Assembly: GCA_021234155.1 (NCBI GenBank)
Contig: JAJEKV010000027.1
Location: 12,412,716 to 12,476,715, forward strand
DNA: 64,000 bases
Direction of reading: 5' to 3'
DNA from: Isoetes taiwanensis
Taxonomy: Eukaryota > Streptophyta > Lycopodiopsida > Isoetales > Isoetaceae
Shown: positions 10,479 through 61,639 of the stretch, piece after piece
Layout of the letters: each line of letters starts with the position of its first letter
Numbering within the stretch: position 1 is the first letter of the stretch
The notes under the pieces: generated by a model
Databases searched by the model: none
What the model was told of the DNA's origin: nothing
Seen by the model: only the letters and a program-made list of their open reading frames with translations
Program-made: the position numbers and the translations under genes

Positions 10479-10794
10479 CGTTAGAGCCTAAACTCTAACC
10501 TTGCAAGAAGGATGGAAAACCAATACTCTAAGCTTCAATTTACCAAATCTATGCAATGCACAACATCATCTCCATAGCTAGATCAAGCAAAATACTCTCT
10601 CTCAATACACCGTCCCTCTGTTCTTCCCTCTCTGCTCAGATAACACAGTGATCATAATCCTCCTCCACAATGTATACGTGCAAATATCCTGCACGCGTGC
10701 ATGAGCATATATCCCTCCATATACGATATGGTTTCCTACACCACCTCAATAGTGGTGAGTGTGGTGAGTGTGGCGAGTGGTGACCACCCCAATA
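10479..10794 (-). mobile_element. Gypsy 5' LTR, inverted
   Basis: 316 bp, the same length as the LTR at 23654-23969, with a few percent of differences. In element sense it starts TATTGGGG and ends GGCTCTAACG; the other LTR has TGTTGGGG and CTCTAACA, so both terminal dinucleotides here carry one G/A change. The primer-binding site lies on one side and the AACCC target duplication on the other. Confidence 0.9.
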
Positions 10795-11008
10795 GGGTTG
10801 TATTATGGTGGTACTTTAGAATCAATTTATCCTATGACAATTTTGTATATGTAGGGTTGTAAAGGAAAGGTTTGGCACCAAAAGTTCATGAAAAAAGGTA
10901 GTGCTCGTTATTTTATGCCTATTTTACTCTTAATGTGCTAGAAGTATGTATGATTGGACCTTAATAGAATGAATTACCTTATAGTTTTAAATGTTTTTTC
11001 ATGTGCAG

Positions 11009-11122
11009 AAGATGTCATGGAAGGCAGAATCCTTCATACATTCGAGATTGAGGACCAGCTTGATGTATGCTGCCAATTCTCTTATCAGTATATATGACAA
11101 ATATGAAAAGCTTATTGAGGAG
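11009..11122 (+). other. Exon-like segment beside the LTR, weakly PPR-like
   Basis: A 114-bp open stretch framed by a pyrimidine-rich CATGTGCAG acceptor and an AG|GTTAGG donor. Its 38 codons include HSRLRTSLMYAANSLISIYD and KLIEE, which loosely resemble the 'ANSLISMYAKCG..EEA' block of plant PPR proteins. It is the original flank of the gypsy insertion. It may be a remnant of an interrupted host gene, or chance. Confidence 0.3.
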
Positions 11123-23248: not shown

Positions 23249-23653
23249 GGGGTTCAGATTTGACATAGCTCCAATTACAGAGAATTTGTGGAGAACTTTT
23301 GGGTTACAGTAGGCCGTTTTCTGTAAAACCAGATGGCGATAGTTCCATAATACACAATCTATCCTACATCAATGGATGTGTTTCGGCGATACGAATCCAA
23401 TGAGCTATGGTACAGGTCAAACGGAGGTCTGGAACTCAAGAACTCAGCTTTCAAAGATTGCCGCAATTACAGAGGCTCTGTTTCGTCACTGCCATTTTGG
23501 ACCAATTTGTTTTGTACTAGTCATTAGGGTAATTTTCTTTCTAAACATACATGTAAATGTGTCATTTGGGGACCTGTCCCAAGGACCATATTAGTATGTT
23601 TTGTTGCGGATTCTCCGCCACGGAGTGGCGCATTTTCCCACTGTGGTCGCCAC
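23249..23653 (+). other. Gypsy 3' untranslated internal region
   Basis: No coding seen. The usual purine-rich tract before a 3' LTR is not obvious. The last bases, CACTGTGGTCGCCAC (23639-23653), are instead nearly the reverse complement of the primer-binding site. Confidence 0.5.
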
Positions 23654-23969
23654 TGTTGGGGTGGTCACCACTCGCCACACTCGCCACACTCACCACTATT
23701 GAGGTGGTATAGGAAACCATCCCGTATATGGAGGGATATACGCACATGCACGCGTGCAGGATATTTGCACGTATGCATTGTGGAGGAGGATTATGATCAC
23801 TGTGTTATCTGAGCAGAGAGGGAAGAACAGAGGGACGGTGTATTGAGAGAGAGTATTTTGCTTGATCTAGCTATGGAGATGATGTTGTGCATTGCATAGA
23901 TTTGGTAAATTGAAGCTTGGAGTATTGGTTTTCCATCCTTCTTGCAAGGTCAGAGTTTAGGCTCTAACA
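23654..23969 (+). mobile_element. Gypsy 3' LTR
   Basis: 316 bp, starts TGTTGGGG and ends GGCTCTAACA (TG...CA). It is the reverse complement of 10479-10794 apart from scattered changes. AACCC follows at 23970-23974, matching the duplication beside the 5' LTR. Confidence 0.92.
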
Positions 23970-31534: not shown

Positions 31535-32329
31535 TTAATATCCCAAGGCAGCTAAAACATCCCAAGCATCATCATCCCAAGGCTTGACTCCCTGGCAAGC
31601 TAATTCCCAAGCCTCTTCATCAGTAAATCCACAGTTTCTCATCCTCTGTTCAGTCTCAGAATCCTCATCACTATCTTCTTCTTCATCTTCAAAGTCTGAA
31701 TCATCTTCCACATTCTCTTCAATGGCTGAATCATCATCTTCAGATCCAGCCTTATACCTTTCATCAAGAGGGGAAACAAAGGCATCATCACAATACCTAA
31801 AACCTTGCTCAGCCACAGAGACAGGGTTTGTTTTAGCCTTTGGCAAATCAGTGGCCGAAGAAGAGGAAGATGATGCAGAACAAGAAGCAGTTTGTACTGG
31901 AATAGAAGGATTTACATGCTTGTACCAACAAGAATCACCATATCTACAAATACCTTGAAGAAAATACCTGCAAGGGCGAGAAAACCTGGTACCTGCGGTG
32001 GATTCTTTGCGATTCAAGCTACTGCCGTTCCATTTTTGCCCTAAAGCCTTAGCTTCAGAAGCCTCTCTTAGCATCCTTTTAATATCAGGGTTTCCGGAGA
32101 GGTCGATAGGCTTGCCTTGAGAGGTCCGGTGATCTGGATCAGCTCCGGAGATCAAAAGCTCCCTTACAGAGTCTGGGTATTGGAATTGAACTGCATACAT
32201 AAGGGCGGTTCTGTCTGTGCTGTCGCATGCCTCCAGATCGACGCCTGGCTTCTCAAGCTCCTTTTTCAGAGGCTTGGGATTGCCAAGCATGGCCGCTTTC
32301 ATCAAGGGGGTAACTCTGGCGCGCTCCAT
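31535..32329 (-). CDS. Ankyrin-repeat and CCCH zinc-finger protein
   Basis: Intact single-exon frame of 264 codons from ATG at 32329. Residues 1-85 hold two to three ankyrin repeats (TPLMKAAMLGN, DRTALMYAVQF, GADPDHRTSQGKPIDL). A CCCH finger follows with C120-X7-C128-X5-C134-X3-H138, the spacing of RNA-binding fingers. Then a Ser run, an acidic stretch (about 195-235) and a closing GFTDEEAWELACQGVKPWDD motif. The likely role is an RNA-binding or regulatory protein using ankyrin repeats for partner binding; the target is unknown. It is the best-preserved host-like gene in the window. The absence of introns could mean a retrocopy or a naturally intronless gene. Confidence 0.85.
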   Translation of the reverse strand: MERARVTPLMKAAMLGNPKPLKKELEKPGVDLEACDSTDRTALMYAVQFQYPDSVRELLISGADPDHRTSQGKPIDLSGNPDIKRMLREASEAKALGQKWNGSSLNRKESTAGTRFSRPCRYFLQGICRYGDSCWYKHVNPSIPVQTASCSASSSSSSATDLPKAKTNPVSVAEQGFRYCDDAFVSPLDERYKAGSEDDDSAIEENVEDDSDFEDEEEDSDEDSETEQRMRNCGFTDEEAWELACQGVKPWDDDAWDVLAALGY

Positions 32330-32674
32330 AGCCGTTTCTCTCTACAGAGCAGATCAAACACCAAATGGTCTAGGGTTTATATGCTTCTGCAGGTGTTTAT
32401 ATCCATCTACTAAATGGCACTGCCACGTACGCAGGTACATATTTTTCCCGCCAGCTATTTAAGTTTTCTGTTATGGGAAATTCGATTACATAGCTTCTAA
32501 AACAAGCTCTATCACTCTAGCAAAGTGAGGCGCAAATCCACCCTTTAAGGGCAGAGCTCACCTACCCAATTGGGCTATCCTAAGTAAGAGAATCTTCGAG
32601 AAAGACTGACTTTTGGGATAAGAAAGGCTTAAGCCATCAATTAAACAAGCATACTATCAAGAATAGGTATGGTT

Positions 32675-34950: not shown

Positions 34951-35002
34951 GTACTACCTAAGCTTGATTTCAAAAGAGCTTATAATATTATTGTAATACT
35001 AA

Positions 35003-35945
35003 AATAATATTATATATACCTGATAATAACAATGTTGAAAACAAAAATGACAACATGATAAAAAAATATAATGAATGTAAAAGAATAAAATTTGTAATAA
35101 ACAATAGACTTATAATGCATATTTGATATAAAATTATAAGTTACAAAGTTCAAACTAATAAAACATTGTTCAATATTTTATGATAAAGAACCAGCTACTT
35201 TATTATAAGTAACAATGATACAAAAAGATATAGTAAATAACAATACCATATTTTTTTTTCTACTTTTATAAATGCCAAATTCATCCAAACATATATGTTA
35301 ATAAATATAAAACAATAAATGATACATGATAAACAGATAAGAAAAAAATTCTTAATAGTTTTTTAAGTTGAAAAAAATTCAGTAAAGTTATTAGCTCCAC
35401 TTACTATATACACATTTGCACATAAATTAGTTAAAATGCATGTGTTATTCATAAAATTTAAGATTTTACTTCAAAGATCTTTAAGAAATATTTTTTTTTC
35501 ATTTCAAAAAAGAATTTGTTGGGCAAAGATATTATTGTGTATTTCGATTAAAAGTTAATTGCTACTCTCTATTCAATTATTCTATATGCAACATAGCCTA
35601 ATAGTAGATTTTATTATAGAGTCATGTGATCTATTTTCAGATTTTCCATTTATTGTACATACAATAGCGCTTGGGAATTGAAGGTATATAATACATGTCT
35701 CGTATAACATTGAGTGGATTGATATTCACTTGATAGGTCATATCTGTTCTAGTTTCTTGATTTGAATTAATAATATGGATTGATATTTAATTGATAGGTC
35801 ATATATATTCTAGTTTCTTGATTTGAATTAACAATATATGAGCAACAAACATATGACTCATATAATAATTACACTATCAAATATATAAAAAGGAATGTTT
35901 TCTTGTTTTGTTTGCGTTTTTGCAATAAAGATACCAATTCTCCTC
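35003..35945. repeat. AT-rich long direct repeat, copy 1
   Basis: Closely matches 43286-44230 in the same orientation (for example AATAAACAATAGACTTATAA). Both copies start around ATATTATATA.ACCTGATA and end around CAATTCTCCTCT. Non-coding. They lie on either side of the recombinase-bearing element. Confidence 0.85.
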
Positions 35946-36316
35946 TCAATTGGATATAGCCATCGTTCGTTACATCGTCTGTACCGAGCACGGCAATCCG
36001 CACCGCAAATGTTACAATCGTCTGTACCGAGCACGAGGCTTCTTTCTTGACCAATGACTGCACGTCATCACGCCCGATCTGGCAGACCCAGCTCCGCCGG
36101 ATCTGGCAGACCGGGCTCGTTAAGAAGAGCGTATGTGAGAAGCTATATTGATGAACTCTTGAGTTACACAAGTGGTAATAAAGTTGGCCTTGGTGTTGTG
36201 ATAGGAGATGAAGCAGATGGAAGTTCTTGATCATAAGATAGATAGGCAGAGCAACATATCTATGTAAATGAAGATTTCAAGTCATTCCATTATCATCTGC
36301 ATTTAGATCATCATTT

Positions 36317-43285: not shown

Positions 43286-44230
43286 TAAATAATATTATAT
43301 ACCTGATATTAACAATATTCAAAACAAAAATGACAACATGATAAGAAAATATAATGAATTTAAAAGAATAAAATTTGTAATAAACAATAGACTTATAATG
43401 CATATTTGATATAAAATTATAAGTTACAAAGTTAAAACTAATAAAACATTGTTCAATATTTTTTATGATAAAGAACCTGCTACTTTATTGTAAGTAACAA
43501 TGGTAAAAAAAGATATAATAAATAACAATACCATAATTTTTTTTTCTACTTTTATAAATGCCAAATTCATCCAAACATATTTCTACTATGTTAATAAATA
43601 TAAAACAATAAATGATACACGATAAACAGATAAGAAAAAAATTCTTAATAGTTTTTTAAGTTTAAAAAAATCCAATAAAGTTATTAGCTCCACTTCTATA
43701 TACACATTTGCACATAAAGTAGTTAAAATGCATGTGTTATTCATAAAATTTAAGATTTTACTTCAAAGATCTTTAAGAAATAAATTTTTTTCGTTTCAAA
43801 AAAGAATTTGTTGGGCAAAGATATTGTTGTGTATTTCGATTAAAAGTTAATTGCTACTCTCTATTCGATTTTTCTATAAGTAACATAGCCTAATAGTAGA
43901 TTTTATTTTAGAGTCATGTGATCTATTTTCAGATTTTCCACTTATTGAACATACAATAGCGCTTGAAAATTGAAGGTATATAATGCATGTCTCGTATAAC
44001 ATTGAGTGGATTGATATTCACTTGATAGGTCATATCTGTTCTAGTTTCTTGATTCGATTTAACAATATGGATTGATATTCACTTGTTAGGTCATATATGT
44101 GCTAGTTTCTTAATTTGAATTAATAATATGAGCAACAAACATATGACTCATATAATATTACACTATCAAATATATAAAAAGGAATGTTTTCTTGTTTTGT
44201 TCGCGCTTTCGCAATAAAAATATCAATTCT
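43286..44230. repeat. AT-rich long direct repeat, copy 2
   Basis: Second copy of 35003-35945, with many small differences spread over its length. The two copies are therefore not very recent, or belong to a dispersed family. Confidence 0.85.
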
Positions 44231-44362
44231 CCTCTACTTCTAATTGCATGTCATGCTTCAAATGAAGATGATTTTGACATCAATCACGTACATCAAAAAC
44301 CAAAAATATTAGGTGATAACTTTGAAGTTTTTATGTTTTGTAATCCTTAATTCTTACGAGTG

Positions 44363-50152: not shown

Positions 50153-50442
50153 AAATGGGTCAAAGCATGGAGGTGGGGGACACTTTTTGTGTCAGCGACA
50201 CATGGTGCTTAGGGGGTGCTTTGCGGAGCTATTTTCTTTGTATTTTTAAAAAATATTTTTTCTTTTATTTTTTTGATATTTTTCCCTGAAACGCATTCAT
50301 ATTATGCCTTGGAATACAAAATTTCAGCTTCATCAGAGTTATAGAAAAAAAGATAAAAATAAGTAAAATTTCCTGCATTAGGTGCTTAGGGTGTGCTTGG
50401 CTGGCGCAAAAATGCCCCCCAGCTCCATGCTTTGACCCAAAT
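50153..50442. mobile_element. MITE in LINE-B, with AAAT target duplication
   Basis: 282-bp element at 50157-50438 with 26-bp imperfect inverted ends (GGGTCAAAGCATGGAG... and ...CTCCATGCTTTGACCC). AAAT is duplicated on both sides (50153-50156, 50439-50442). Taking out the element plus one AAAT restores an open LINE reading across the site. The interior is AT-rich and non-coding. Confidence 0.85.
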
Positions 50443-51034
50443 GCAGATAGAAAGAGAGGAAATTAGAATTGCTAGGGGTTGGAAGATCAAGGCAAAGGCG
50501 AAGGAGCTCAAGGAAGATGAAAGGAGCAACTCAAAGTATTTCTTCATCAAAGCTAAGGGCAGAATTAAGAAAAATCATATTTACAACATTCTTTGGGAAG
50601 GCAACAATATTGATAACGACACTCAGCTAAAGTGTGCTGCCAGAGATCATTTTTCTAGGATTATGGGAATTGAGGAAAATATTAGTAGTGAAGACATTGA
50701 GAATTTTGTGCATATCCAGCAGAAAGTTACTAATCAGATGAATGACAGATTATCCAGACCTTTTTCTTATGATGAGATGCTCAAGGTTCTTCAGGAAATG
50801 GAGAATGGTAAGACTCCAGGCCCTGATGGCCTCCCAACTGAATTTTTCAAGAAATCTTGGGAAATTCTGGGTAAGGATATAGTCTCCTTGGCCAATGAAT
50901 TCTTGACTATTAAGCAACTGGACTGCAGAATCAATACAAGTTTGATTGCTCTCATCCCGAAGATTGAGCTTCCAATCACCTTCTCAGATTACAGACCTAT
51001 CTCCCTGACCAATGTGGTTTATAAGTTAATTACA
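50443..51034 (+). pseudogene. LINE-B ORF2, RT N-terminal half
   Basis: Reads IARGWKIKAKAKELKEDERS, NSKYFFIKAKGRIKKNHIY, then RT finger blocks EMENGKTPGPDGLPTEFFK, NTSLIALIPK and FSDYRPISLTNVVYKLIT. It stops at 51034 where the 9-kb insertion starts, and continues at 60092. Confidence 0.85.
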
Positions 51035-51194
51035 GGTAAGTCGTATTTAATTAAAGTGGGACAAATCTTGAATTTTGGGACTCGGACTGAAAATGTGACT
51101 CATATTGACATCAAAATTTCACATCATATAACAAGGACTGGTTCATAATATTTTCTTACAGAATTTCCAAATAAATAGTTGAGAAAGTTGAGCG

Positions 51195-51385
51195 AGGTGA
51201 GATCGAAAGGGGAGGGAAGGGGAAGACTGAGTGAGAAAGGGGGGAGAAGAGGGGCAAGGGAGAAGAGGGGCAAGGGAGAAGAAGGGGCAAGGGCAGGGGG
51301 CAAGGGGAAGGGGGGCAAGGGGCAAGGGAGAAGAAGGGGCAAGGGGGAAAGGGGAGAGTGGGGAAGGGGGGAGGGGAAAGCCAAA
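51195..51385. repeat. Purine-rich minisatellite (GGGGCAAGGGAGAA)n
   Basis: Imperfect tandem units of 9-17 bp made only of G, A and rare C/T. Proline/leucine-rich frames on the opposite strand come from this composition and are not genes. Confidence 0.8.
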
Positions 51386-51455
51386 ATAATAAAGGGAATG
51401 TATCCATTGAGATTAAAAATACATATTATCAAAATATAATTAATAATTAATTTAA

Positions 51456-52700
51456 TTAAATAGATAACCAATAAAAAAAATATAAACCATTCTCCTTTTC
51501 TCGACTAGTGAGTCGAGAATTGGAAAGGTCTCCTTTTCCTTTGCCCTTCACTTTCCGGCCTCCTTTTCCTTTGCTCGATGCCTTCGCTTCTCTGTCGTCG
51601 GAGCTCAAGATGGAGCTCTTATCCTCCTCCAGTGATGAAACTGAGACTGAAACTGAAACTGAAACTACTGTGTTTTTTTCGTTTCCGCTCGCGAATTCAA
51701 TCTTCTCGCTTTCTTCGCACGACGAAGCCGACCCATCTTCCATCCTCCAGAAAACCTTCACAAATTCGCTCCAAAAACACTCCCCAAAACTTCCCAACCC
51801 CTTTTTCAATCCGCCCACCTCCGACCATACGAAAACCTTCCCATCGCCGCTGCTGCTTCGCCTTCTTCTCCCTCGAATTTAAGATCCTCGATTCAACGCC
51901 CTTCGCCCTGATGGCCTTGCCAAATCCTGACCGCTGCTGCAGCGGCAGCAGGAGAGTTGCTCTTCGTTTCTAGAAATTGGGCTTCGAATTTTAGGGCACA
52001 CGCAGCAGCATCGCAAATTATCAAAAAACGATATGCCATAATTGCGAGGTATGCTTTCACGTTGTTACAGCTCTTCCGAGGCTCCATTCTATTCCGACTC
52101 ACGCCATAGCCAAAGCTTGACGTAACCCCTCCTACTAGTCGACCGCCTCCCAACGGAGTTCTGCCATAGCCTCCCGGACTTCCCCCTCCATATCCTCCAC
52201 CTCCGCCATAGCAGCCTCCTCCACCTCCTCCATAGCCCGGCTCTTCCCCATAGCCTCCTCTGCTTGATCCTCCGTAGCCAGGACCTCCGCCATTTGAGGG
52301 GAGGAATGGTGGAATTTTTCTGCCCTCCATGGGCTTTCTGTCGCAGAGGCCCTGCACATCGAACCCCTGCTGCAAATGGCTCGCTGGCGGACTGATTTGT
52401 AGCGACAGGTCTGGATCTGCCGCTCTCATCCGCCCTCCTTGCATTTCCTTTTACCCTTCCAAATGCCCAAATGCTCGATCAGCCTTCTGTTTCCTCAGTT
52501 TTTTCGCCGCTGCAGCATGAATGCTCCATTGCCTCCCATTCCAAATCGCCTTTTTCTTCAGGATTTCTTGTCATTTCAAGGGCGTTCTGCTCCATTGCGT
52601 CGATTTTGCTCTCAAATCCCGACCGAGATCTTCCGACAGCATAATCGGGGCCCCTTGCACAGCAAAGGGAGGTGCTGAAACGAAAAAATGGGAGCAAAGA
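51456..52700 (-). other. Possible gene with Gly-rich region, unassigned
   Basis: On -, 52444-51893 reads MQGGRMRAADPD... and contains a Gly/Tyr-rich block (GGSSRGGYG, EEPGYGGGGGG, GGSPGGYGR). 51818-51456 is Ser/Asp/Lys-rich (SVSVSVSVSSLEEDKSS). On +, 51508-51882 is also open (MELLSSSSDETETETETE). Base composition is more gene-like than the surroundings, but splice sites and strand cannot be settled by eye. It may be a captured gene fragment. Confidence 0.3.
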
Positions 52701-52739
52701 CTGGGAACAACCGGGTCAGGTATCACGGCGGAGATCTAG

Positions 52740-53496
52740 AAGCTCAACTGGGCAAAATCTTAATAACCAACTGGGTTAACGATTGAACACATTTCCGAAC
52801 GATTGGGGATTGAGGAACTGGGAAGATAACAGGGATGAGATGATGGATTCATGCTGGAGCTATGGGAGATGAAAATGGAAACAGAGAAATGGGTTATGGA
52901 GGTGCAAGGCAGAGGATTTAAGGGGTTGAGTTTGGATCGGAGGTGGAGTAAAAGCCGGTGGGAGCTATGGTGTTGGGAGCTTCTTCCAAGCGGTACAAAT
53001 GAACTTCTGTCTCAAAGGTATGTACCAAAGTTTAAAATTCAAGCATGGGCGGGAAAAAAGGCGGGGTATTAGAAAAAAAGGGTAAAATAATACGTTGAAA
53101 AAGAAAGTGTAAAATAAATGATTTTAAAATTCAAGCATGGGCGGGAAAAAAGGCGGGGTATTAGAAAAAAAGGGGTAAAATAATACATTGAAAAAGAAAG
53201 TGTAAAATAAATGCTAATAATATAGGATTATATTTTGACATGTCCTCAATTTCCTCTTTTTATGTGTGTGCTACTATGTTCACACGTTAAACATTATGTT
53301 CCCATGGTGCACGTTTTCTAGGCATATATTCTTATTCCAAGGTAAAAATTTAACTTTGCGAAGATCATGATATAATTTACACCTTGTTTAACCCATTTTG
53401 AAGGTTCAAGACACAAATGGGGACAAGTACATATTAGTAGGTCTAATGCATATTAATAGATTTAATGCATAGGTCTAATAGGCTCTCATAGGTTAT
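52740..53496. other. Spacer with a ~91-bp tandem duplication
   Basis: TAAAATTCAAGCATGGGCGG...GTGTAAAATAAATG occurs twice, at about 53031-53111 and 53122-53214, with only a few changes. No gene. Confidence 0.6.
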
Positions 53497-53624
53497 AATC
53501 CCATCGATCCGAGCCATCGGATCGCCATTCTGAGAAAGGACGAGCCCCTATATTAGGCTAGTTCCATTCTCAGGCCGGTTATCGGTGTCTTCTCACAGTA
53601 GCATTTTCTTCGTTCTCGTAGCTT
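53497..53624 (+). repeat. Split repeat A1
   Basis: Shares CCCATCGATCCGAGCCATCG, TATTAGGCTAGTTCCATTCT and TTTTCTTCGTTCTCGTAGCT with A2 (58450-58574). There is a small indel near the middle and a few percent of changes. Confidence 0.88.
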
Positions 53625-53629
53625 TCTCA

Positions 53630-56600
53630 CGGTAGCTCCTTCTTCTATTTCCGGTGCTTCCTTTCCTCATCATCTTGCCCCTTTTCTGGCATCTTCTTCA
53701 TCTTTACCACCATCTTTTCCAGAACTTCTCACAGATTGGCATTCGCGAATTCTTGCTCATCTCGGTACCTCTTGTCACGATTCGAGCTTGGTTGCAGTGG
53801 TCAGAGCTGCATTTTTGCTGAGGGCGGATTCCGCGTTTTGGTGGCTGTATTCCATCGTCTCGGACCATGTTCATGCAGATCTTGCATCTTCAATCTTTTT
53901 ATATTCCAGCTTCGGCTCTTTCGACCCCTTTTTCCCTGAATTCGTGTCTCCTTGGTCCTTGGAATTTTCCCATGACCTATCGATTGCCAGCCTGAGCCAT
54001 CGATTTTTCACGGGGCATCCAGATCTGCACTTCTTTTTTCCATTCCGATCTGGTAGGTTGGATTTCGGCCAGGCTAGCTGGGCGTGCGCAGGAACGGAGG
54101 AGAGTTGGAGCTGCATGCACCATATGCTTCATCGATTTTTCAGTGATGCCGCTTTGCCGTCCCAGCATTTCATGTGCTTCCGTTTCTTCACTTGTCCAGG
54201 CTCCCTGCATGCTCCCTGCAACCAGTCTCAGCCCACGGCGCCCTTCACTTTTCCATCCCCAGTCCTAGCCATCGAATTGGAGCTCTGTTGGATCACACAT
54301 CTCTGCTATTTTGGACATCACAACAGCAAACTACCCTGGACCTGTATTTTCATTGCAGGGATACACTCTGCTGTCGATTTTTTATCATGCTCTCAGGTCA
54401 TGGAGTCCAATTGACGCTCTCATGTGCCCATAGTTTGTCTACTATCTATATATCATGAACTAGCCGAGACCATAGCCAATTTGGTTCTCTGCACTTTTTG
54501 TAGACATCGAACCATTCTGAGGCACCCAACTTACTTTCGGCCAGGCTTTTTTGATGCACAGGGTTTGTTGTCTAGACGTCCTTACCTCTTCTTCTTGTTC
54601 TTGCTAGTTATCGATTTGACATAATCTGGCTGCATTGTTCCTTCACTAGTTTCAGGTTTGCATTGCGTGGTCGGGACTGCACTCTTCACCAGCATTCTGG
54701 GGTTGCTTTAGAGGATCTTTTTGCCATGCACAACGGTTTTTCCACACACCCATAGCATTCTGGAGTTTCAGCCTTTCTTTGCATGTATGCCATTTGTGTC
54801 CTGCTCTGGGCTAGAGGATACACCTCGTCTTTTCATTGGCCTTGGGCATGTGAGTCCAGTACGTACCTCTTATGTTAGAGGCCAGTTTGCCTTTGGCCTT
54901 TGGTTCCTCCCAATTCTTAACTTCGAGTTTGTTTGCAATATGTTACTATTTTCCTATTTGTTTATTGGGCAGGGTCCTTGGTTTTTTTTCACAGTCTCGC
55001 CCATGTGTATTTGGTGATAGTTTTTCATTATCACGCATTGCCCTCCGCAAAATTCTATGTTCGTACTCATGGACTTTTTCTTTGTCATCACACATGCACT
55101 TAGGTAATCGTTTTCCTTTATACCATAGTGCATCTTCTCATGCCAGCAGTCCTCCTTGCCCCTTGGTTCTTTTTCACTCGTCCTCATGGTCCTTTTCCTC
55201 ATCCATCCTTTCCGCCGGCCCCGAAATTTGTTTTAGTTTTTCAGTGTATTTCTTAGCTCATCCATTTTCTTTGTAGTGGGCTTATTCCTTCCGCTTGTTA
55301 TATGGTCTATAAGCATGCCTTTAGCCCTCGATTTGTAGCCATGTGCTATATTCTTCTTCTTGTAACATTTCTGGTTACCCCTCGAGATATTTAATTTATT
55401 TTTTATCCTATAAATTTCGGTATTATTTTCTCGATGTATTGATAATTTTCGTGCGTTGCCCCGTTATGTCATGTTGAATATTTTCTAGCCCCTCAATTCA
55501 CTTGTGGCCTTATATCCTTGTATTTTTATCTTGAGATTGCCTTATATTGGCATTCGTGGTGTTGTCTGCATTTCGCATTTTGTTTTTCCATTCTTGCCAC
55601 TGGGTTTTGTATTGACACTGGATTTTGTGAATGTTGTTGAATTAATCTCTTTTTATCATCTATCTTTGACCGAAGAATTCATATTTTCTTTATCATTGGA
55701 GCTCTTTGACTATGGCATTGTACATGATGTTATTGCATCTCGTTAATTGTAGGACATTGGCTTGCTTTATGGGCATGGATCTAGAATCCATTATTTAGTT
55801 TTTCGTGGTTATTCACTCTCTCTCATTAAGGTATAGTATTATATTATATTATGACTGTTTATGCTTCGATGGCTGTTGTCCATTGGCCTTGATGGCACAG
55901 AGATCTCTCTCTCTCTCTCTCTCTCAATACGCAAAAGTTTGATGTAACCTTGCTTGTCAAATTTGCCTATACGCATTTTATTTTTCCATTCTATATCTTC
56001 ATATTGTCTACATATGCACCTGCATCCTACATTTACAGTGGGTTTTCTTGGATATTGCATCATGTTGTTGTGACTTGTTCATTGTATAAAGGACGTTTAC
56101 TTATTTTTGCATTTTCTTTGGCATAAGGTCGATTGAGAACTGTATTTACTTCTCTAGGTGTTATATGGATGAGTTTTTTTTTCTGAAGTTTTCAATAAGA
56201 TGATACATTTGCCCACTTCCTATTGCCATTCATATCAATGGATTTGGGGTTTGATTTTGGACAGGCTCATCTGGCTTGAATCGTGATCATGTATGCATTT
56301 GGCATTTTCGTCTTTTTCTCATACGCACATGTTCTTCGCCTTGCTCAATACGCCCAATTTTCTTTAGACCAACTTTCTTATATGCATGTCATCGATATCA
56401 ATTTTTGCATCTGGACTTATGCTTGGTTTTACATTTGGTAGGCATTTAATTGCAGTTTATCTTATCATCATTTGGGTTTGCTCCTTGGCTTTGGATATAA
56501 GGTATATTTGCTAATTATAAATTGGTTACAAGGTTGGTGGACTTCCAGGGTTGGGCGTTCTCGTTTTCGAATTCTCGGATCCTCAATGTAGACAATTATT

Positions 56601-57380
56601 TTGTTGAGCCATTTTTCTAGCGGAAGTTCCTTTGTGGCCTTTTCAAGTCTCCTTTTATTCGGTCCATAGGGGGATGTTTTCCTTAGTCCAGGGTCGTGCC
56701 ATGGGGGCTGAGTTTTTTTACGTGTTTGTTTTGGGCTTGGGGCGTACATTATTTGTCCCATTTTATACAAGTTGAGTCCCAGGTGAGGTATCCGTTCTAG
56801 GTTTGCTTCTTTCCACGATTATATCGACTTGCTTTAGGTTATTGTTTTCTATCCATATTTCCTGGCATTAATTCATTTGAGTAGGGGTATGGATTGATAA
56901 TTGGCATGTTTTTCATGAGATGCTTTTTTGCATGTGTATTTTATTTTGAAACACGCAGGGATGCATATGGCTAATGACTTGCATTCATGTTATATGGATG
57001 TTTTCAATTCTCTGAGGCCCTCGATTTATAGTGTTTGGGTTGTAATGGGGTTCTTGATTTGGTTGTGTATATCTTTTCATATGTTCCTTTTACATTTTTC
57101 GTTTTAGTTGCCCACGTGGTTTCTTTATATGTAGCATGATCTTATAAAATTTGTGTTTTCCCATGGTGGTTTCGGATTTCTTCTCTTTTGCAATTGTCTT
57201 TTTCTATTGGATCTTGATGCTCCGCGCTATTCAACTGGGACGTCTTCTTCGACTCGTCATCGTGGATGGCTTGTTTTGTTATTGTGGGGGCGACCTTTTT
57301 CTTCGTCTCGTGGCTGGCGTGCTTTTCTTTCCATTGTTTTTTGTTCTCTAATGTACTTCCTTTTTTCAGGTCACTGAGCT
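53630..57380 (+). other. Interior of split-repeat element, no coding recognised
   Basis: T-rich on + with several open frames (for example 53788-54414, 54872-55276) that show no RT, RNase H or other known motif. A short (CT)n lies at 55903-55924. It could be a long leader or badly decayed coding DNA. Confidence 0.45.
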
Positions 57381-57381
57381 G

Positions 57382-58392
57382 ATGTCGTCTATAGCGAGCA
57401 CTTCCAGCTCTTTTCCATCCATTTCGTTTTCTCCCCCATGGCTCGCTCGCGCTGCTGGTTCTCGTCGTCAACGCGAAGCTTCCCTCTCGCTTGAACCCGC
57501 TTCTTTGGACCATAGTTCCCTTTCTCCCCCGGCTTCTCCTGCTTCCGTTTCGTCTATTTTCTCTTTTTTGGTCTGCCCCTCGTACCTTTCTTCCTCTCTT
57601 GCCTCAACACGTACGTTCTATTGTTCTCCACTTCGCACATGATGTCGGCCTCCTCCATTTCTTCAGCCTCGGCAGCCATATCCTTTTTTCATCAACTTTT
57701 CAATCTTCCCTCTCCTGCCATTTTACCTTTACCCTCGTTGGCTCGTCGGTCTACCTTTAAATCGCTTCGCCCTCCTCGTACCTTTCTTCCTCTCACCTTT
57801 CGGCATATTACGGCTCGATTGTTCTCCCACTTTGCATCCTTGCGGCTTCTTTTCCCTCTCTGGCCCGGCTTGCTCGTTTGTAGTTTCCTTTTTGCTTTTT
57901 TTGCATCTCGAGGCCCTTGCCCTCAATTGGCGTGATCTTTCTTTTTCCTTATCGCATGTGGATCTTCTTATTCGTCATTCCACGCGTGACCAACTTGCCC
58001 GTGGTCATACGATTTCTTTAGCCCGCTTGCCTTCGTTCGCATGCCCTGTCACTATCCTTCAGCGCCTGATTTCTACCGGTTCTTATCATCTCCTCGATCC
58101 TCCATCCGGCGGCCCTCTTTTTCGTTCCTCTCCTTCTTCCTTGCATCCTTTATCCTATCCGACTGCTCGGGGGTGGTGGCGGGAGTGTCTTCTTGCTATC
58201 GGCTTGAATCCAGCCCGATATGGTACTCATTCGGCTCGTCGAGGAGGGGGCTTCGGCCCGCCGCTTTGCGCCGGAGTTCCACATCTTTACTTGCGCACTC
58301 ACGGTCGTTGGCGCTCCTCTTCTTCTCACTCTCGCTATGTGCTTCGCGACCCTACTCAACACCTGGACGTTTCGCGACGCCTGGGTTTATAG
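57382..58392 (+). pseudogene. DIRS/Ngaro-like tyrosine recombinase
   Basis: Read over three frames with slips near 57640 and 57900. The N-terminal part (57382-57900) is Ser/Leu-rich with helical blocks such as ISFFHQLFN, RRSTFKSLRPPRTFLPLTF and ITARLFSHFASL, like the core-binding domain. The catalytic part (57900-58392) reads LEALALNWRDLSF, RHSTRDQLARGHTISLARL, PLFRSSPSS, ARGWWRECLLAIGLNPARYG, then THSARRGG (H-x-x-R), HLYLRTHGRWRSSSSH (third-box His with G-R-W) and SRYVLRD (nucleophile Tyr). The first catalytic Arg, expected just before LEALALNW, is not visible (Leu-His there). Such enzymes cut and rejoin DNA to insert circular intermediates without target duplication. Confidence 0.75.
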
Positions 58393-58412
58393 TTAAGGAA
58401 GTCCTTTGGTAG

Positions 58413-58452
58413 TCGGCCGGTTTTGTGTCTCTCGCGAGTTCTTTCCCAGAAT
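58413..58452 (+). repeat. Split repeat B1
   Basis: 40 bp, one base different from B2 at 59315-59354. It ends in CAGAAT, which runs straight into A2. Confidence 0.9.
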
Positions 58453-58574
58453 CCCATCGATCCGAGCCATCGGATCGCCATTGAGGAAAGGGCGAACTAT
58501 ATTAGGCTAGTTCCATTCTCGGGCCGGTTATCGGCGTCTTCTCCGCAAAGACATTTTCTTCGTTCTCGTAGCTT
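58450..58574 (+). repeat. Split repeat A2
   Basis: Second copy of 53497-53624. It starts at the AAT shared with the end of B1, the expected crossover point. Confidence 0.88.
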
Positions 58575-59115
58575 CCCCCCCTTCCCACCCTGCTGCGTGG
58601 GCGTGTACGTCTTTTTCATTTGTATTAGTACTGGTTCTTGCTCTTTTTGTGGTTTTTCACTTGTGGGTGTCGCTTTTTCCTTAGCATTTTCCTGTGTTTT
58701 TCTCCGCTTGCGGGCGATGCTGTTTATTTCCACCTTGAGGGTGATGCATCTTTATATATCATGTTTTCCACCCGCTGGGTGATGCTTTTTCCACCTTGTC
58801 GGTGACGCTATCTTTTTTTGTTACGCTTTTTTACGTGGATTTTTATGCCTTATCTCTTCCAGCTTTCTTGATGCGGATTCTTTTTATGGCTAGGCTTGTT
58901 TCTCTGACTCTTTACGGGTGTTTTTTTGAGTTTTTTGGTATTACAGGTTTTCGCTATCTTCCACCGGCTTTTGGGGTCCTGCTGGTTTCCGTTCGTCATC
59001 CTCGTTGTTACATGGGGTTTTTTCGCGGTTGTTTGGGGTCGTGCTTTCGGTTTGCCTTCGCGCTCGTCCGGTTTCTCTGTTCTCTGGGCAACACATTCGA
59101 GGTTGGTGGCGACCA

Positions 59116-59165
59116 TTTCTCATTAGGGTTTTCCTCGAAAACCCGAAAGGGCGGGGTTTTTTATC
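59116..59165 (+). other. Stem-loop before B2, shared with the LINE remnant at 24.7 kb
   Basis: CCTCGAAAACCC, a short loop, then GGGCGGGGTTTTTTATCCC can form a hairpin of about 9 bp followed by T6. A very similar arrangement (CCTCGAAAACCC ... GGGGGTTTTTTAATCC) is at 24671-24705. It could be a 3'-end or termination signal common to two element types. Confidence 0.4.
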
Positions 59166-59314
59166 CCGATGAGAACTTGTCGCCATTGCCCTCTTATCAT
59201 GCCTTAGCACATTTTCTTTTTTTGGGGTAGTCCGATATTGTTCCTATGTTCGGCTGCCCCTCTCTCTTCTTACACATTGTATACTGCTGCTGTGATGAAT
59301 GACAAGCCTATCTA

Positions 59315-59354
59315 TCGGCCGGTTTTGTGTCTCTCGCGAGTCCTTTCCCAGAAT
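59315..59354 (+). repeat. Split repeat B2, right end of element
   Basis: Matches B1 over 40 bp. The following GTGCATTATA is presumed flank. Confidence 0.88.
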
Positions 59355-59690
59355 GTGCATTATAGGTGCATATGTTGCTATTTACATGTGCATTAGGCAT
59401 TACTCTTTACATAGCTAAATATGAGCCCAATGGTCCCCTCTTCATATAGCTATATGGTATGGTCCATTAGAAAGGGGGAGGGTCCATTGGATATGTGTCC
59501 ATTAGATAATATAAGGGGAGGGTCTATTTTTCATGGAAAATACGTAGGAAATTTATGGGGAGGGTATTTTTTTTATAGAAAATACATAGGATGTTTGAAG
59601 GTTATTCATTCTCGACCTTCTCGGACTCTGAGCTTTGAAATTGCCCTTTTTTACTCTTCGGAGTGCTTTTTCGACTTCATGGGGAGGGAG
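59355..59690. other. Spacer between recombinase element and satellite
   Basis: Contains repeated GGGAGGGTCCATT(A/G)GA and GGAAAATAC(G/A)TAGGA units. No gene. Confidence 0.4.
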
Positions 59691-60091
59691 TCGAGAAAGG
59701 CCCTCAAACTTGCATTTTTTGCTTTGAGCTGCCTTTCTCGACTCGCGAGTCGAGAAAGGCCTTCTGACCCCTAAAACCTGTGTTTCTGGCTTTGAACTAC
59801 CTTTCTCGACTCGCGAGTCGAGAAAGGCCTTCTGACCCCTAAAACCCACGTGTTTTTTTTTTTGGTTGCCTTTCTCGACTCGCGAGTCGCGAGTCGAGAA
59901 AGGCCTTCTTACCCCTAAAACTTGCGTTTTTCGCTTTGAGCTGCCTTTCTCGACTCGCGAGTCGAGAAAGGCCTTCCCGACCCCTAAAACTGCGTTTCGG
60001 CCTTTGAATCGCCTTTCTCGACTCGCGAGTCGAGAAAGGCCTTCTGACCCCTAAAACCTGCGTTTTTCGCTTTGAGCTGCCTTTCTCGACT
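59690..60091. repeat. Satellite with 30-bp perfect palindrome
   Basis: Five full units and one half unit of about 67-74 bp. Each has a palindrome centred on CTCGACTCGCGAGTCGAG; the copy at 59731-59760 is perfect over 30 bp. A conserved spacer (CTTCTGACCCCTAAAACCTG...TTTGAGCTG) separates the palindromes. The unit near 59870 has the GAGTCGC core doubled. The last unit is cut almost at its centre, where LINE-B resumes. A lone diverged copy (CTCGACTAGTGAGTCGAG) lies at 51498-51515. Confidence 0.9.
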
Positions 60092-61639
60092 CGCGCAGCA
60101 AGACTCAAGCCCATTCTGGAGGAGGTCATCAGCAACACTCAAAGCGCCTATCTTAGGGGAAGGTATATTCTAGACAATGTGGCTGCAGCATCCTTAGGCA
60201 TCTCCTGGGCTAAAGAATCCAACCAGTTAATTGGCCTTCTTAAATTAGACATCACAAAGGCCTTTGACACGGTAAGTTGGGATTTTTTATGTTGGTGCTG
60301 CAAGAAACTGGGATTCTCTGATAATGTTATTTCTGTTTTCCAAGCTATTCTTAAGAATTCCAGATCTGCTGTCCTTATCAATGGTGAATGTAGTCCATTC
60401 TTTGATATCAAAAGAGGGGCCAAGCAAGGCTGCCCTCTTGCACCTTTTTTGTTTTTAATTGTGATGGAAGGACTAAATAGTGACTTCAAGAGGGCAAAAG
60501 ATCTCCATTTAATCAAGGGACTCAGTCTTCCCTCCCAGGAAGCAAATGAGATCCTTAATGTCCACTTTGCAGATGATACCTTCATATTCCTACATTTGGA
60601 GGCTCGATCCATTAAGAATACTCAAGCTATCTTGGAGGACTTCGAAAAATGCTCAGGATGCAGAACTAATCCCAACAAGACCAAGCTAATCTCAAGGCAT
60701 CAAGAAGAGGGTGAGCATGCAGCTGCAAACATGGGATGTATGTATCTCTCCCCTAGTACTAAAACAAAAATTCTAGGCATTCCTTATGCTATTAATGCAT
60801 GTGATCTTTGGGAGGACCTGCTAGATAAATTCTACAGAAAGGTTGACTCCCTTAATTCTAAATTTTTATCCAAAAATAGAAGAGCCATTCTGGCAAATTC
60901 AGTCATTTCTTCCTCTCAGGTCTATCAATCCTCCATTATTATGGCACCTAAGAAGGTATTAGCTAAAATGCAAGGTTTATTGCATTTTATTGGAAGGTTT
61001 ATTGCAGGTGGATCTAGCAGGAGGTGCTGGGTCCCAATCTCTATGGATGAATGCTGCAAGCATAAAAGTAAGGGGGGTCTGGGAGTTATCAATATCGAGA
61101 AGCAGGCCACTGCTTTGGCTGCAAAATATTTCTTCAGGGCCTGCAACAACCAGATCAACCACCCTGTGAGTGTTCTCATCTCCCATTATATTGAAAAGTG
61201 TCATCCCTTTGGCTGGAGAAACCTCAAAATGCAGCTGCCTCATAGCATTTACTTTGAATTTACTGTCCCTGCCTCCATGCCTTTGAATAACAAGAAATGG
61301 ATTAGAGCATGTATGTACACATGGAAAGAAGGCCTTTCTCAGGACCAGCCTATTTTCTGGAGTCCCTCTCTAATTTTGGATGATCCGAATATGTGTTTAG
61401 CCACTAATTTTCCTAAGTTAACCAAACAGTGGACTAATAGAGGCATAATTTATATACGGGATATTATTGATGATTTTGATTATCAGGAATCCACCCTTAG
61501 AGATCTGGGAGATGACTCCAGGCAGCTTTTCAATAGTATTTCTCAGAGATTGGCGATTGGAGAATGGCATGACACTAATGAATTTGGCATATTAATGGCT
61601 TTTGTGGATACAGAGTTAATTTGGCTTACAGGTATCTAA
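60092..61639 (+). pseudogene. LINE-B ORF2, RT C-terminal half
   Basis: Continues the RT from ARLKPILEEVI. The catalytic blocks are intact: LKLDITKAFDTVSWDFL (first Asp), GAKQGCPLAPFLF and VHFADDTFIF (FADD box, about 60560-60590). The thumb and connection follow (NPNKTKLIS, ILGIPYAIN, GGLGVINIEKQATALAAKYF). The frame is open for about 500 codons to a stop at 61637-61639, a long run for a dead element, so this LINE inserted recently in evolutionary terms. Confidence 0.9.

Follow-up and report, generated by a model that had tools for sequence, protein, structure and literature searches.

Split-repeat retroelements carry an internal B1A2 copy, which in the model for these elements supplies the template that joins the two ends. 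Published descriptions of Ngaro, PAT-like and VIPER elements show the direct repeats in the layout A1, B1-A2-B2, and for Ngaro and VIPER they put the internal repeats downstream of the tyrosine recombinase (YR) gene (PMC6681497, PMC4157794, PMC9210276). The ORFs of Ngaro are given in two of these passages as gag-like, reverse transcriptase/RNase H (RT/RH) and YR (PMC4157794, PMC9210276), and the TOC elements and kangaroo are described there and elsewhere as coming from green algae (PMC3266345, PMC4157794). A land-plant transposon review omits DIRS, given as known from green algae only (PMC9033089), and green plants are called devoid of DIRS1-like elements in another source (PMC3266345). Other cited passages mention Dirs1-like elements from Viridiplantae in general terms (PMC4157794), place DIRS among plant transposons in a figure legend and text (PMC11630846), list 361 DIRS-labelled fragments with a total of 45 kb in a Ceratopteris repeat table (PMC6890710), report PAT-like elements in Chlamydomonas and its relatives (PMC8226300), and describe from Klebsormidium an element that has Gypsy domains despite its DIRS-like repeats (PMC5890265). 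Among the literature matches listed, no split-repeat recombinase element was found in a land plant.

Within the window, by which we mean the whole 64-kb stretch of DNA that was analysed, an element of ~5.9 kb (53497-59354) combines a recombinase gene with split direct repeats. On balance, we lean towards reading it as the decayed copy of a YR retroelement with split direct repeats in the Ngaro/PAT-type layout; lacking RT, the copy would be non-autonomous and depend on the RT of a relative. Its features are as follows.

53497-53624, + strand: repeat A1, the left end, beginning with AAT
53625-57381, no strand assigned: T-rich interior of ~3.76 kb, in which RT, RNase H and Gag went undetected, with no overall codon periodicity
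57382-58392, + strand: remnant of the YR gene, with ATG at 57382, an internal TGA at 57640-57642 and the stop at 58390-58392
57907-58392, + strand: part of the YR catalytic domain, with the conserved residues given below
58413-58452, + strand: repeat B1, ending with AAT
58450-58574, + strand: repeat A2, beginning with AAT
58450-58452, + strand: AAT common to B1 and A2, the presumed crossover site
58575-59314, no strand assigned: T-rich stretch between A2 and B2, with no codon periodicity
59086-59204, + strand: strong predicted RNA hairpin in the A2-B2 stretch, near the right end of the element (z -4.29, 0 of 200 shuffles as good)
59315-59354, + strand: repeat B2, the right end, ending with AAT

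All four repeats lie where the earlier note had placed them, and the order that it gave, A1 - recombinase - B1A2 - B2 with an AAT overlap, is borne out; the overlap of B1 and A2 is exactly AAT, at 58450-58452, and the same triplet opens A1 and closes B2. A1 and A2 match in 116 of 122 aligned columns and mismatch in 6, the alignment also showing 6 gap events, and the outermost 32 nt of A are identical between them; B1 and B2 are identical at 39 of 40 positions. As direct repeats, A scored 152 bits and B 68.9 bits, far over the 36.5 bits that was the highest value when the best direct repeat was taken from each of 100 dinucleotide shuffles of 53400-59450, which rules out a chance origin of both. 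The match is not continued into the outer flanks of A1 and B2. An extension of A or B past these borders, which the note had set against its own reading, was not found in shuffle-based comparisons for diverged homology, the score past A being 40 against a shuffle mean of 37.6 (a fraction of 0.32 of 200 shuffles equal or better) and that before B being 42 against 42.8 (0.58 of 100 shuffles). The 64-kb window yielded no other copy of either repeat, and none of the 16 inverted pairs of at least 20 nt listed links the two ends of the element, which are direct repeats. An 8-bp inverted repeat, CGATCCGA/TCGGATCG, lies within repeat A (in A1; examined in the A2 copy). The unoccupied site at this locus is expected to read ...CATAGGTTAT-AAT-GTGCATTATAGG..., with a single AAT.

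This layout had been called diagnostic of PAT/Ngaro elements; the match in layout stands, but its diagnostic value does not, because tandem YR-only elements at one AAT give the same order. Two such DNA elements, a 4956-bp A1-B1 unit coding for the YR and a 905-bp non-coding A2-B2 unit at the same AAT, would involve no RT, so that its absence follows directly. Either half indeed opens and closes with AAT and contains one A, as the left end, and one B, as the right end, and Cryptons, in the passage cited, carry a YR alone, with integration of a circular form at short repeats proposed for them (PMC3212892). In the same passage, however, Cryptons are described as ending in repeats of 4-6 bp and having no long direct repeats (PMC3212892). 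A short unit that arose as an internal-deletion form moreover predicts homology past A or B, none of which was found, and the sharp stop of A and B argues against A2-B2 as a deletion product of A1-B1. A single T-rich, A-poor strand bias spans A1-B2 and is weaker in the flanks; composition and bias are thus common to both halves, the A2-B2 stretch being as T-rich as the interior 53625-57380. No DUF3504-named family, the recombinase type of animal Cryptons, was obtained for the YR ORF at E ≤ 10, which is a weak test, Phage_integrase having been missed too. Taken with the type of the YR, discussed below, these observations make a tandem pair rather unlikely in our judgement. The A2-B2 stretch also holds a 26-nt motif in three imperfect copies (TTTCCACC...GGTGA) at 58727-58813.

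The tyrosine recombinase that the earlier note had recognised is present, although its gene is not intact. A profile built from 120 eukaryote-type tyrosine recombinases, which were gathered with a query partly composed by hand with the window ORF in view, matched 1 of the 1206 window ORFs, at 57643-58389 (E 7.9e-12). The conserved His 58228, Arg 58237, Trp 58309 and Tyr 58336 are kept, and this catalytic-domain homology with His, Arg, Trp and Tyr places the product in the tyrosine recombinase superfamily. The conserved Lys of the relatives' SKTD motif is Thr here (codon 57982), and box I, compared by eye, reads FLHLEAL in the window frame where the relatives have FLRAGEF, with His codon 57904 in the place of the Arg. 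A single in-frame TGA (57640-57642) interrupts the frame 57382-58392, in which 6.6 stops would be expected from base composition and 1 internal stop was found (P(≤1) 0.010); the segments 57383-57640 and 57906-58389 show clear codon periodicity, which 57640-57905 lacks. The frame-0 stretch 57636-57905 was tried as the N-terminal half of the YR and rejected, with a profile score of -1.1 bits where shuffled pieces reached up to 2.0, and therefore no frameshift is claimed. The structure model was weak (pLDDT 61, pTM 0.43), and a Foldseek search with it returned nothing at E ≤ 0.001; the best match was XerH (E 0.16). A structure ranking supports the YR identity, though from a poor model. Judged from its sequence, 57382-58392 is a real tyrosine recombinase gene that has been damaged, and because of this damage the copy is probably not itself active.

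Searches with the window YR itself, including phage tblastn and viral-contig protein scans, found no relative. PDB sequence searches with the ORF gave no recombinase and a single unrelated match (E 0.91), the NCBIfam scan gave nothing, and the Pfam scan gave no family at E ≤ 10, with Phage_integrase also missed. Plasmid tblastn with a hand-typed motif found nothing, nor did exact-match scans of viral contigs with B and of prokaryote contigs with A; the phage, viral, plasmid and prokaryote collections searched hold no plant genome set. In 2 of the 120 profile relatives, P0016 and P0049, the stretch directly before the YR is what we take to be a DIRS/Ngaro-type RNase H, and a YR of this type speaks against tandem YR-only elements. 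Pfam did not recognise the RNase H-like stretch of either protein, and a profile made from the two found no match in the other 118 of 120 relatives.

The interior was likewise consistent with the claim that no RT is visible. Pfam detected no family at E ≤ 1 and no methyltransferase-like domain in the six frames of 53625-57380, and the RNase H-like profile from the two relatives gave nothing over background among the window ORFs (best within the element E 3.1, minus strand), so that the RT/RNase H search which the note had proposed for this region came back empty on both counts. The lack of an RT match in Pfam carries limited weight, because Pfam also missed the YR found by the family-specific profile. 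It would thus be compatible with a split-repeat retroelement that was autonomous but has lost its RT/RNase H to erosion past recognition in this copy, for which the 3.76-kb interior is roomy enough to have held Gag and RT/RH and in which weak periodicity (fractions 0.015-0.03) appears in 3 of 19 sliding 300-base windows (starts 53500-57100) and in the first half of ORF 53602-54414 (0.027). Periodicity is nevertheless absent across that ORF as a whole and in four pieces of 54415-57380, and it is difficult to see why RT alone should have eroded with A1 and A2 still matching in 116 of 122 columns and the YR still readable, which renders this history very improbable. Because of the same repeat match and readable YR, RT was probably never present in this copy. 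ORF 53602-54414 (270 aa) was also considered as a gag and rejected, showing no Pfam match, no whole-length periodicity and, by eye, a late first Met.

For a decayed copy dependent on a relative, the reading that we favour, RNA would be transcribed across A1...B2 and copied by RT from a putative autonomous relative. The internal B1A2 would act as the template on which B, the right end, is joined to A, the left end, so that a circular DNA with the junction B-AAT-A forms, and the recombinase would recombine the AAT of the circle with a genomic AAT. The outcome would be an A1 starting with AAT and a B2 ending with AAT, with no other target duplication; AAT at both ends and in the B1A2 joint is the trace expected of a recombinase integrating a circle through the B-AAT-A junction. 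Since the copy has no RT, the RT would have to come from a relative, hence the term non-autonomous. A full set of split repeats next to a YR, with RT undetected, could also suggest a YR-only element whose entire A1-B1A2-B2 unit moves as DNA without reverse transcription. Known split-repeat elements, however, carry RT/RH in the passages cited (PMC6681497, PMC4157794, PMC9210276), a DNA route has no evident reason to retain the internal B1A2, and activity of the unit's own is not inferable from a damaged copy. We regard such movement as improbable, and equally doubtful is a lineage of RT-independent YR-only elements with full split repeats around AAT, standing between Cryptons and retroelements of the DIRS order and, if the earlier note is right about the host, found in a plant.

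In favour of the retroelement reading we counted the split repeats with an exact AAT overlap in the Ngaro/PAT-like/VIPER order, the YR profile and structure ranking, the common strand bias, and the RNase H-like stretch in P0016 and P0049. Counted against it were that RT, RNase H and Gag all went undetected, that no autonomous relative was seen, that a single copy is known, that A1-B1 and A2-B2 may each be a complete YR unit, that the YR link came through a partly hand-composed query, and that 118 of the 120 relatives are without the RNase H-like stretch. The DIRS-like, non-autonomous copy proposed in the earlier note accordingly retains its layout, its YR type and its lack of RT, but not the layout as a diagnostic character.

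The recombinase element is contained in a 9.06-kb block (51036-60098 region) between two parts of a LINE-type RT. The left part, in ORF 50390-51148, reads ...YKLIT to 51034 (by eye, with no Pfam match), and the right part, in ORF 60008-61639 (RVT_1, E 6.4e-24), resumes with AARLKPIL at 60095. The block starts with GTAAGT and ends with GCGCAG, resembling intron borders, possibly by chance, and its right end holds a tandem array (59701-60095; 68-nt unit, 5.7 copies) around a CTCGACTCGCGAGTCGAG palindrome. Elsewhere in the window, a direct repeat at 35002-35946 and 43287-44235 (955 alignment columns, 93.6%) is perhaps an LTR retrotransposon pair, and a 440-base direct repeat at 1-440 and 10616-11055 (99.5%) has an inverted partial copy at 23653-23968 (96-97%). 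Of the ten ORFs scanned, the one most clearly of host type lies at 31535-32341 on the minus strand; its 268-aa product has a CCCH zinc finger as well as ankyrin repeats.

Should the host be a land plant, this full-structure copy with exact borders would widen the range of split-repeat recombinase elements to include land plants, and its A, B and AAT junction sequences would serve as probes for relatives that are still active. Movement of the unit without RT, if it occurs, would bear on the kinship of recombinase DNA transposons and recombinase retrotransposons.

Compared with the described systems, the element resembles Ngaro, as characterised in the cited passages, in its split repeats, with A1 on the left and B1-A2-B2 on the right, and in having its internal repeats downstream of the YR (PMC4157794, PMC9210276), the remnant of which ends 20 nt before B1. 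It differs from Ngaro in its damaged YR and in having no detected Gag, RT or RNase H, the latter two by Pfam and the RNase H-like profile, which a very divergent RT could escape, as the YR escaped Pfam. Its repeats measure 128/40 nt, against 236/152 bp published for the Ngaro-like DIRS-53_XT. PAT-like elements, TOC and kangaroo included, share the split direct repeats; the window copy differs from them in that neither RT/RH nor a methyltransferase-like domain was detected by Pfam, which missed the YR too. As the searches for RT and RNase H came back negative, the copy is not filed as Ngaro or PAT, only described as laid out like one. TOC1 is an RT-less split-repeat element, and a non-autonomous element of its type would combine split repeats and a lack of RT with an RT-bearing relative in the same genome; of these, split repeats and the absence of a detected RT were observed here. 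DIRS1-like elements, with inverted terminal repeats and an internal complementary region, are set apart by the direct ends of the window element. With Cryptons it shares a YR as the sole recognisable enzyme and no RT found, subject to the same caveat on Pfam, and the circle integration at a short repeat proposed in the cited passage for Cryptons; their ends of 4-6 bp direct repeats contrast with its long split repeats (PMC3212892), a difference that holds for the unit A1-B2 and would not apply to two tandem units with AAT ends. VIPER of kinetoplastids, which in the cited account codes for Gag, YR and RT/RH where only a YR was detected here, has the same A1 ... B1A2B2 layout, and its truncated relative SIRE, a short non-autonomous form, matches the VIPER A2-B2 (PMC6681497), as the 905-bp A2-B2 half of the window element would match its own A2-B2.
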